A stretch of 64,000 nucleotides of DNA from Muricea muricata (Eukaryota > Cnidaria > Anthozoa > Malacalcyonacea > Plexauridae): assembly GCA_963855995.1 (NCBI GenBank), contig OY979728.1:9880004-9944003 (forward strand), read 5' to 3'. Made by a program: the position numbers and the translations under genes. Below the pieces are notes generated by a model, which saw only the letters and a program-made list of their open reading frames with translations, had not been told where the DNA came from and did no database searches. Shown here piece after piece: positions 40,617 to 61,389 of the stretch (positions are counted from its first letter, which is position 1; the number at the start of each line of letters is the position of its first letter).

Positions 40617-43600
40617 ATGCAGTCGTTGTAAATGGAACATTCCTGTCGCTCTTTCATACATTGGAAGGCGAGGCGATGGTCGTTGCGGCCAGCTCCGAGG
40701 CTTTAGATGACAAACAATTATCTTCTTTTAATAAACTGTATTTTGAGCGTTCTCTGAGTTAACCTGAACGCATTACACATACTACGTCATACTCACCTTA
40801 ACAAGAGGATTTTCTTTAACTTCCTTCGGTTCCTAACAAAGTAAAACAGCAACATTTCAAGTTGTCCTGGTTATATTCAGACGGTATTACCGTTATGCCC
40901 AAAATTGAAGAAAGTAACTAAGATAAACTTACGACGATAGTGTTTGGCAATTGAGGTAAAAAGTGATTTTCCAAGTCCTACAAATAGAATTTGATGGAAT
41001 GAAAAAGAATTAAATCGTAGCTACATGTAATGGAGTGTGGTTTGGAAACTCCGCGAACTTCAAAGACGTTTGTAATGAGCTGCAATTTCATATCGAAACT
41101 GCTTTACCGTGCACAAAGCGTTTGAATTTGCTTATCAATACTTAAGCAGTTCGGTTGAGTGATACGACGAGGCGCGTTGGAGCAGAAACCTGCATATTAC
41201 ATTACACCAGCAATTAATATACAACAAAGGTCTCAACACCACAGTTTGGACAATTTGTCTAGCAATAGACAATTGCCATGATAGACTATAAATTTAGATC
41301 CAGGAAAAACGAACAAAATTTTTCATCCCAGCTGAAGAGTGTCTTAAAATTAGTAGAACTGCAAAGTTTGGGGGCGAAATGCTGTGAGTAGCTAAAAAAA
41401 TCCAGCTTTTTGAAATTTGCAAATTTTGTATATGTTATAGGATTACGAAAGAGAAAGCCTAGCACATATAAGGTGAAAGTGGTAGGCTCTCCTGTGCCTA
41501 ATACAAATATTTATACACATGCAAACTTCGTAGGGCTACATCTTCCGTTACATAAAACATTTAGCTACAAAACTTTGCAGTTCTACTAATTTCAAGATGC
41601 TCTTTTCAGCTGTGATGAAAGATATTGCTCGTTTTGCCTGGATCAAAGTTTAGTCTATCATTGTCTGTCTGTTTCTCGCCCCAGGCTATGGCGCACCGCG
41701 AATGATCATGTACGGTAAACGATGGATGAGAAGAGAACACATACAGTTCCTCAGACATCGATAAAAAAAGTATCTTAAACGGTAACGGCAACAAATTCTT
41801 TGCTCACTTGAAAGAGCTTTTCCAATAACTAACAAAGTCTGTCACAGCTTATTCATATCTTGCTTGATTTTTGAGATATTTCGGCGGAGACATACGAGCT
41901 GCTCCGGGATATGCTTTTCAAGGTATACATGTTAGGTTGACAAGCACTGATCAAAACGAACCAGAAACTAGTTCATACTTGTTATGGGATATCACGAGCT
42001 GACTAAAACCATTTTGGCCAACCATTCTTTGTTGGTATGCACTCGACCATGGACTATTACAAATCCAGAGTTTTGATTGGCTTCTAAACCATGGACTATT
42101 CGTGATAGTCCATGGTTTAGAAAGACAACAAAACAAAGCTTCAAAATGGAATCAAATCATCGGTTTGACGAACTGAAGTGTACACGAAAACAATTAGACA
42201 ACTCGGCATCGTTGACTATGAGGGAATAGACATACACAACTCGACCTCGTTGTCTAATTGTTAATTAGTTAACTTATTAAAGGGAAATGGCAACAAAATT
42301 TTATCGTCTCATTTGAAAGAGACTCCAGATTAATATGTAAAAGTCTATTACAGAATTTTTATATCTGCCTTATTTGGTGAGATATTTTGACTTGAAATCT
42401 TTAGTTGTCCGCCATCTTGGATATTGTGGATATGCACGATACGTCACTACTGGGGTCACGCGATTTTTTTTTCTTACGACACAATGGTTAATATGCTCTC
42501 ATAACCGCATGTACGGTAAAGTGTTTCGGATTTCAGCACGGACTGAGAAGATTTCAAACAATATTTGATTGTTGGTAGGTATTTAGGAGGATTTTCGACA
42601 GGCTTATCCCTGTTGTGACGCCACCAAAACATTGTTAATGAGGTGAAAAATTATTCCAAGATGGCGGACAGATCGTTGATTGAGATGAGAATATCTCCTG
42701 AAGTAAAACAGATATAAAAATTTTGCAATACACTTCTATTTATTGTTTCAGAGTCTCTTTCAAATGAGACAATAAAATTTTTTGAAGCCATTTCCCTTTA
42801 AGGGTAATTTTTTTGGCACTTGTATTTAAAATGCCCTATTACCATTAACTTACATCAGGCATGACTGTCTTTATGTACGCATTACATTGATCATAGGTTC
42901 CTCTGTCAATGACAGCAACGACGATGTTGACTGAATTGCTGAGCCAGTCTGAATGCTCGACTCTGACTTCAATCTTGACGCCATCTTGCACTTCAATAAT
43001 GCGTTTCTCGGGCAGCTCTAGAAAGATCGCTCAAACCTTAAGGGCCAGTAGCAATAAATGCATGTTAAAGGGAAGTGGCAACAAGAAATTTTATTGTCTC
43101 ATTTGAAAGAGACTCTAAAATAATATATAGAAATCTATTACAAAATTTTTATATCTGTTTTACTTCGGGAGATATTGTCACCTAAATAATCGAACTGTCC
43201 GCCATCTTGAATTAATTTTTAACCTCATTAACAATGTTTTGGTGACGTCACAACAGGGATAAGCCATTCAAATCTTCTCGTAAATACCTACCACCAATAA
43301 AATATTTTTGAAACCTTTTTAGTCCGTGCTGAAATCCGAAACACTTACCATGTGTGCGGTTACTGGAGAAGATTAATCATTGGTCGTAAGAAAAACAAAA
43401 TGCTGACCCGAGTTGTGACGTATTATGCATGTCTACAAATATCCAAGATGGCAGACAACTAAAGATTTCAAGTCAAAATATCTCACCAAGTAAGGCAGAT
43501 AAACACTCTGTAATAGACTTCTGTATATTGTTTTGGAATCTCTTTCGAATAAGACGAAAAATTTTTTGTTGCCATTTCCCTTCAACTATAGAAAACTAAG

Positions 43601-60500: not shown

Positions 60501-61389
60501 CCCATTTTGCAAACCTTCCTAACGGATAATACCTGCATACCCGTGGCTTTTTTGCAACTCTGATGACAGTGCACAATTTTCCCACTTTTCAATTTCAAAC
60601 ATGCTTAAGCTATTCGAAATTTTAGAAAAATTGCAGTAAAGTTTGGTTGCAAAAATAATAATATTCATTGCAAGATCTGCTAAGTTTCACCGCATGATAT
60701 TTCGACTATTTCAAAGTCATTGTCATTGTGAAGCTCTATTCAAAATTCATTGTCTGGCCTTTGAAGATGGCTTTGAAATATAACCTCAAAATTGTGAAAT
60801 TAAAAGACAAGTTGTCTTTTGTTTCAAGAAGCTCGAAACTCAGATTACACAAGTGTTGTTTCAAAAAATATCTTTATATTTTATTAAATTGTTTGCTGGT
60901 AATTGGTTTTGAGGGTTTTGTGCTTGCATCATAAACTACCCTTGAAAATTTCATTTTGTGGGCTTTGAAGAGGACTTAAGTTTATATTAAGTGGAATTTC
61001 TTCGAAAAACAATTTATTAAAGGGAGCTTACAAACATAGTTTACGGTTTGACAGGATTGGACTTTACAATCGGTTTTGTTTTCAGATGATAAACGGTGTT
61101 TTTGTGGAGGAATTGAGTAAAGGAGACGAAAACATGCCTGAAAAGTACACTGAAGAAGAAGCTGTGGTAAAAATATCCAATCTTCAACGACTTGAGGTAT
61201 GGTCGATGTTTCTTTTTTTCTTTCAGGCTTGTTCTTTATAGAAAGTCGGTGCCAAACATTTGTTTTTGTTTTCAGGGTCAGTTGTCACTCAAGTTAAAAG
61301 TAAGCTACATCACAGGAAATAACAGACTTATAAATGAACTCGTTTGCTACGAATTTAAAGACAGACCGCTTTATGCAAGGCTTGTATGA
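54564..61389 (+). CDS. MALT1: MALT1-like paracaspase B (complete, 12 exons)
   Basis: Exons in phase: 54564-54867 (death domain), 55501-55866 (Ig1), 56052-56357 (Ig2), 56663-56704, 56807-56934 and 57598-57860 (caspase-like core), 58321-58413, 58528-58652, 59638-59790, 59922-60097, 61086-61196, 61276-61389. The product is about 726 residues (human MALT1 about 824). Ig domains show YQWFKED...GLYICRV and FQWLRDE...GTYTCRV. Catalytic His is in YFAGHGFE and Cys in LIDCCRTT; S1-pocket acids align as D in TNDVRD, D in LIDCC and E in VFEHR. After the core, FDAEFSNVLVIRAL marks the third Ig-like domain found in MALT1. Expected role: arginine-specific protease and scaffold in CBM-type innate signalling. 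The donor at 55866 has an alternative six bases downstream that keeps frame. Confidence 0.92.

Follow-up and report, generated by a model that had tools for sequence, protein, structure and literature searches.

Type 1 paracaspases, the family of human MALT1 (PCASP1), were triplicated in jawed vertebrates, and mammals lost two of the three copies; cnidarians typically carry several (Staal et al. 2018, PMC5978004). The same report describes the parts of a CARD-BCL10-MALT1 switch in cnidarians, treats the original job of that switch as an open question, and states that in the coral Orbicella one of four type 1 paralogs was induced after bleaching. Here, we analysed a 64,000-nucleotide stretch of octocoral DNA (Muricea muricata, contig OY979728.1; hereafter the window), in which two genes of MALT1 type, A on the minus strand and B on the plus strand, lie head to head. 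The main text of PMC5978004 contains no occurrence of "synten", "head-to-head" or "octocoral", and in the literature searched, whose coverage mostly excluded subscription papers, we found no description of a head-to-head MALT1 pair or of octocoral type 1 paracaspases.

The cnidarian paralogs that Staal et al. label A, B and C resemble the present genes in that there are several per cnidarian and that BCL10 and CARD-coiled-coil proteins are present; their labels are not equated with our A, B and C, the comparison being one of descriptions and not of sequences. The first-pass annotation of the window had set the pair against a single vertebrate MALT1, which is true of mammals, whereas jawed vertebrates had three. 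Taken as a whole, the reading that we consider likely is that A and B are type 1 paracaspases, intact as far as modelled, that they are old paralogs and that each would work as MALT1 does.

Identity and integrity of genes A and B

To obtain gene models, human MALT1 was aligned to the window with splicing allowed, and the models were then refined with the A and B proteins reciprocally and with splice-site scores. Human MALT1 aligned over nearly its full length to both genes, with scores of 588 for B and 561 for A, and the alignments cover the death domain, two immunoglobulin-like domains (Ig1 and Ig2), the caspase-like domain and a third immunoglobulin-like domain (Ig3). The caspase exons were compared with PDB, and MALT1 chains made up 10 of the 10 matches at E<=0.001 for each exon (the best E values were 1.8e-24 in A and 1.5e-19 in B). 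In both genes, Pfam reported Peptidase_C14 as well as two Ig stretches. The MALT1-like identity proposed at first is therefore upheld, as is the domain order of death domain, Ig, Ig and caspase-like domain, to which a probable Ig3, a domain that belongs to the family and had been overlooked, is to be added. The segments of the two models and the region between them are as follows.

51571..51729, minus strand: gene A exon 1, start codon and N-terminal half of the death domain (human MALT1 spliced alignment, ATG placed)
50989..51151, minus strand: gene A exon 2, C-terminal half of the death domain (spliced alignment)
50103..50360, minus strand: gene A exon 3, Ig1, phase 1-1 (spliced alignment, end set by donor score; Pfam I-set)
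49021..49281, minus strand: gene A exon 4, Ig2, phase 1-1 (spliced alignment; Pfam Ig_3)
47737..47763, minus strand: gene A, possible and optional 27-nt linker exon between Ig2 and the caspase-like domain, phase 1-1 (spliced alignment; acceptor score 8.4; reading frame intact without it)
46660..47071, minus strand: gene A, first part of the caspase-like domain, with the AGHG His and the LDMCR Cys (MALT1 E=1.8e-24; Pfam Peptidase_C14)
44701..44775, minus strand: gene A, next exon of the caspase-like domain (spliced alignment)
44399..44520, minus strand: gene A, the following exon of the caspase-like domain (spliced alignment)
43868..44011, minus strand: gene A, linker from the caspase-like domain to Ig3, with the conserved Trp (human W580; spliced alignment)
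42854..43017, minus strand: gene A, first half of Ig3 (refined alignment)
40617..40700, minus strand: gene A, tentative second half of Ig3 (weak alignment)
51730..54563, no strand: region between the start codons, 2,834 bp (from the ATG positions)
54564..54867, plus strand: gene B exon 1, ATG and the entire death domain (MALT1 death domain, E=3.6e-4; spliced alignment)
55501..55866, plus strand: gene B, Ig1 exon, 3' end uncertain (MALT1 Ig1-Ig2 chain 3k0w among the matches; Pfam Ig_2; donor choice)
56052..56357, plus strand: gene B, Ig2 exon, weak donor and uncertain 3' end (spliced alignment; Pfam)
56807..56934, plus strand: gene B, first exon of the caspase-like domain (spliced alignment)
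57598..57860, plus strand: gene B, caspase-like domain with the AGHG His and the LIDCCR Cys (MALT1 E=1.5e-19, query 57556-57864)
58321..58413, plus strand: gene B, caspase-like domain exon (spliced alignment)
58528..58652, plus strand: gene B, caspase-like domain exon (spliced alignment)
59638..59790, plus strand: gene B, linker from the caspase-like domain to Ig3, with the conserved Trp (human W580; spliced alignment)
59922..60097, plus strand: gene B, first half of Ig3 (spliced alignment; Pfam MALT1_Ig, 24.9 bits)
61086..61196, plus strand: gene B, second part of Ig3 (refined alignment)
61276..61389, plus strand: gene B, terminal exon with the stop codon (refined alignment, splice-site scores)

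Gene B could be followed from its ATG at 54564 to its stop codon at 61389. Gene A runs from its ATG at 51729 to at least 42854, with the tentative extra exon ending at 40617, and no convincing match to a terminal exon was obtained on the minus strand between 26,000 and 42,860 when the human and B Ig3 ends were used as queries. The initial description of two complete genes is not confirmed for A. The Ig3 alignment of B reaches the end of the domain, and its Pfam MALT1_Ig score lies below the cut-off of 26.4; the first half of Ig3 is the secure part in A, for which Pfam MALT1_Ig was not reported. The death domain of B matched four MALT1 death-domain sequences (E, 3.6e-4 to 4.9e-4), followed by seven weaker and unrelated-looking matches up to E=10. 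That of A, spread over two exons, was found by spliced alignment alone, and its assignment is weaker than in B. The Ig1 exon of B retrieved many Ig proteins (105 PDB sequences at E<=0.1), titin being the first and the MALT1 Ig1-Ig2 chain the second.

The first-pass annotation had contrasted LDMCR in one gene with LIDCC in the other, a comparison of strings that are offset by one residue. Properly aligned, the two read L-D-M-C-R and I-D-C-C-R, with the catalytic Cys in register. The active-site strings are ILDMCR in A, LIDCCR in B, LLDMCR in human MALT1 and IIDACR in a third copy of the genome, C, described below; the variable position in this alignment is the residue directly before the catalytic Cys. 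At the positions of human D365, H415, D462, C464, E500 and W580, all three octocoral copies carry the human residue. These are six of the 11 aligned positions listed, and the other five, which were picked without a known role, vary. We take H415 and C464 to be the catalytic pair of MALT1, D365, D462 and E500 to form its acidic pocket for arginine, and W580 to be its allosteric Trp. On this assignment, A and B share with human MALT1 the domain order as modelled, the catalytic His and Cys, the acidic S1 residues and W580, at 36-37% identity over the caspase-like domain and the first half of Ig3. They differ from it in their linkers, in being more than the single gene of mammals and in that a simple motif scan did not pick up the TRAF6-binding sites of human MALT1. 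Mutation of V81/L82 in human MALT1 has been reported to abolish BCL10 binding (PMC6168461), and the aligned residues are hydrophobic in both octocoral genes (L/I in A and I/L in B).

An assembly artefact or a pair of pseudogenes is a very remote prospect. It would fit the 3' end of A, which resisted modelling, and the weak splice sites in parts of B. However, the window contains no N and lies inside one contig (C13) of the 453-Mb assembly, the modelled exons of A and B are open frames with the catalytic residues retained, and BLASTN of the A locus against the B locus returned a single 33-bp match, all other similarity being at the protein level, so that near-identical sequence beyond that match is absent.

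Relationship of the pair and the third copy

The whole genome was searched with the caspase exon of A, and A, B and C alone were recovered (three candidates scored, three matches at E<=0.01); given this single query, three copies is a lower bound. Copy C lies on contig C16 (8091952-8106097, caspase exons from 8.101 Mb) and has a caspase-like domain with the same six key residues, an Ig3-like part and introns shared with A and B. Unlike in A and B, a local Ig model detected neither Ig1 nor Ig2 in the 30 kb covered at this locus. A Death domain open reading frame (ORF) of the classical type (Pfam PF00531, 48.4 bits) lies about 9 kb upstream of the caspase exons of C and may or may not be part of that gene. 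Since a local death-domain model built without C misses this domain (E about 1) and Pfam Death finds it, it is of another type. The architecture of C is apparently different from that of A and B.

A Pfam caspase search of the genome gave 98 match rows, from which 34 stretches were inspected. Caspase-type motifs (SHG, THG, QACR, QNCR or DSCRG) were present in 22 of them and absent from the two best frames of the remaining 12. None of the 34 scored above 79 against MALT1-type references, in a scoring run without a positive control alongside. Large local clusters of caspase-like genes were seen at C8:9688896-9845975, C1:33.2-35.7 Mb and C1:96.5-97.0 Mb, and two caspase-like loci on C1 (L026 and L048) carry FDSCRG in place of the QACRG or QNCRG seen in others.

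Identities among A, B, C and human MALT1 were compared over the caspase-like domain and the first half of Ig3 (caspase+Ig3a). Human MALT1 and A share 105/290 positions (36.2%), human MALT1 and B 109/296 (36.8%), human MALT1 and C 105/274, A and C 96/269 (35.7%), and B and C 99/273 (36.3%). The value for A and B, 82/296 (27.7%), is the lowest of the six pairs, the other five falling within 35.7-38.3%. The two genes have indeed diverged in sequence, as had been noted at first, and a recent inverted duplication was rejected, the nucleotide similarity between the loci being limited to the 33-bp match. In quartet analyses of the four sequences (12 distinct runs, four alignments by three models), the grouping of A with B was the worst in 12 of 12 runs, with an approximately unbiased test probability (p-AU) of 0.020-0.066, below 0.05 in nine.

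Bacterial paracaspase-like proteins have the same caspase-like core, with GHG and D-x-C motifs, at 26-36% identity in the best segment (80 of 230 relatives). A rooted tree was built with 18 of these 80, near copies and short sequences having been removed, as outgroup; another 18 relatives, on viral contigs, did not enter it. The animal genes formed a clade (98.1/95), A grouped with human MALT1 (83.2/91) and B fell outside, the order of B and C being weak (54.6/72). The best of the 15 rooted topologies was (((A,human),B),C). Branch lengths in this tree were 0.67 for A, 0.65 for human MALT1, 0.51 for B and 0.50 for C, and neither A nor B has a branch that clearly exceeds those of human MALT1 and C. 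The first-pass annotation had named phylogeny as a test of its proposal, with placement of the two genes in unrelated clades counting against it; the tree leans in that direction without reaching it. Sisterhood of A and B is disfavoured by these comparisons.

Four introns in the caspase-Ig3 part are common to A and B in position and phase: two of phase 2, after the active-site CR and at FA/TC, and two of phase 1, immediately before the Ig3 linker exon and at AH/ELP. Three of the four also occur in C, and a phase-0 intron at FK/VIS is present in B and C and absent from A. The probability that two of the three detected copies would lie within 3 kb of each other by chance is of the order of 1e-4, under uniform placement in 453 Mb. 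Because two of the three detected copies are so closely linked, an origin by local duplication is suggested; because human MALT1 and C each resemble A and B more closely than A and B resemble one another, on branches that are not clearly longer, such a duplication, if tandem, was probably old. From these sequence comparisons, A and B are probably anciently diverged paralogs, not recent duplicates, that split close to, or earlier than, the divergence of cnidarians from bilaterians. On the simplest history, a tandem inverted duplication would have taken place long ago and the two copies would have stayed linked, the linkage being presumably as old as the duplication. The tandem inverted duplication put forward in the first-pass annotation fits the linkage in this old form, and as a lineage-specific event it is doubtful, A and B being the least similar pair.

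That two unlinked old paralogs were joined secondarily by a rearrangement would suit the deep divergence of A and B and the placement of A beside human MALT1 to the exclusion of B. We think it quite improbable, since a chance meeting of two of the three detected members within 3 kb is itself improbable and copy C remains on a separate contig. A tandem inverted duplication within the cnidarian lineage, for instance in octocorals or anthozoans, followed by fast divergence, is a more serious competitor, if still an unlikely one. The adjacency and inverted orientation of the genes and their common intron positions speak for it. Against it stand the lowest identity of all pairs in caspase+Ig3a, the last place of the A and B grouping in all quartet runs, branches that are not clearly long and the retention of all six key residues in both genes.

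Several observations weigh against the reading of A and B as old paralogs of MALT1 type, and the first two also favour a duplication within cnidarians. Over the death domain, Ig1 and Ig2, A and B share 71/263 positions (27.0%), human MALT1 and A 68/254 (26.8%), and human MALT1 and B 81/277 (29.2%), so that A and B are no more distant from each other in this part than A is from human MALT1. With the bacterial outgroups, the three topologies that unite A and B as sisters had p-AU values of 0.153, 0.114 and 0.012, and the first two stay in the confidence set. In three of the 12 quartet runs, the p-AU for A with B was 0.05-0.066. The phylogeny samples one bilaterian sequence, that of human, and one cnidarian genome. 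Pfam Death matched neither A nor B. Finally, a simple scan for TRAF6 sites (PxExx[acid/aromatic]) returned no site for B or C, and for A a single doubtful match in the death domain; the scan is insensitive, only one site having been found in human MALT1 itself.

The region between the genes and its surroundings

The divergent arrangement at a distance of 2.8 kb was confirmed: the ATG of A is at 51729 and that of B at 54564, which leaves 2,834 bp in between. A shared promoter and co-regulation had been suggested on this ground and find no positive support. Classical bidirectional promoters have start sites under about 1 kb apart, and the distance between the two ATGs exceeds this. Acceptor-like sites were scored upstream of the start codons. 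One lies 13 nt upstream of the ATG of B (score 5.9, the 99th percentile being 4.6) and one 4 nt upstream of the ATG of A (score 2.0, 90th percentile), and none of note was seen in C. This suggests introns in the 5' untranslated regions of A and B, which would draw the transcription starts closer together.

No kappa-B consensus occurs between the start codons; the window contains three, against 2.4 expected by chance, one in the first intron of A and one within B. The observed/expected (o/e) ratio of CpG is 0.57 in the body of B, 0.81 in the body of A and 0.65 between the genes, and within the exons of A it rises from 0.66 (5' half) to 0.95 (3' half). Ratios of 1.00-1.17 were obtained for three other gene stretches of the window, and further parts of it, its first 4 kb among them, are as low as B. 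If a low ratio reflects methylation, A and B may differ in gene-body methylation. The stretch 53001-54000 has a ratio of 0.99 between flanking 1-kb stretches of 0.47 and 0.38, and values in 300-bp steps are noisy (0.59-1.2). It is possible that this stretch is an unmethylated promoter region between the genes.

A bidirectional-promoter unit from which A and B are co-induced would draw on the head-to-head orientation, the 2.8-kb distance, the possible leader introns and this high-CpG stretch. We nevertheless judge it improbable, in view of the excess over the classical distance, the lack of a kappa-B consensus between the start codons, the unequal CpG depletion of the two genes, which hints at different transcription, and the response of a single Orbicella paralog of the four to bleaching (PMC5978004).

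Elsewhere in the window, a long reading frame at 6521-8236 (plus strand) resembles BTB-Kelch (KLHL) proteins by eye. A GRDP-like (glycine-rich domain-containing protein-like) gene with a Pfam GRDP-like match lies at 32918-35095 (minus strand), and a second such gene, recognized by eye, lies in the same orientation at 21919-24431. A long tandem repeat just past gene B (62640-63188) is open in several frames, with two-residue repeats in translation. The mitochondrial contig of the assembly (C74, 19,292 bp) encodes, in one reading frame of 987 aa, the MutS domains I, III and V together with an HNH domain, and one tRNA, tRNA-Met, was found on it when its two halves were scanned apart. A mitochondrial MutS gene is a mark of octocorals (PMC3166940). 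This gene and the single tRNA found identify the genome as that of an octocoral, and the cnidarian source assumed at the outset is borne out.

Predicted mechanism and its bearing on the family

Eleven CARD loci were found in the genome, and all except L152, L155 and L156 were compared with BCL10 and CARD9. A BCL10-like CARD lies at C10:9051021 (BCL10, E=6e-8) and a CARD9-like CARD at C9:12553102 (CARD9, E=1.3e-9; BCL10, 2.9e-7). A further CARD lies at C9:12531631, 21 kb from the CARD9-like one, and scores 92 against CARD9 and 84 against BCL10. Given the conserved key residues, the hydrophobic equivalents of V81/L82 and the presence of BCL10-like and CARD9-like CARDs, a MALT1-like mechanism is likely, and A and B probably each work as MALT1 does. 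In such a mechanism, a CARD-coiled-coil protein would nucleate BCL10 filaments, on which the death domain and Ig region of each gene product would dock, if these proteins depend on BCL10. Clustering would then activate the caspase-like domain, which would be expected to cleave after arginine, and the remainder of the protein would act as a scaffold. However, the type 1 paracaspases A and B of a sea anemone were reported neither to cleave human CYLD nor to activate NF-kappa-B in human cells (PMC5978004). By analogy with these homologs, MALT1-like activity may be lacking in the octocoral genes.

The model of Staal et al. (PMC5978004), as set out there, includes two ancient type 1 paracaspases, one BCL10-dependent and one BCL10-independent. 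As a tentative proposal, A and B could be these two. The pair would then be what is left of a duplication, older than the divergence of cnidarians from bilaterians, that gave rise to one lineage on the MALT1 side (A) and another (B), linked in this octocoral ever since.

Genes A and B are ordinary members of a known family, and it is their arrangement and the depth of their divergence that make the evolutionary question testable. Cnidarians are without lymphocytes, yet they have the CARD-BCL10-MALT1 parts. The genome of this octocoral combines BCL10-like and CARD9-like genes with a pair of adjacent, deeply diverged MALT1-type genes whose catalytic residues are intact, and in it one can ask which of the two relies on BCL10 and whether their split came earlier or later than the divergence of cnidarians from bilaterians.

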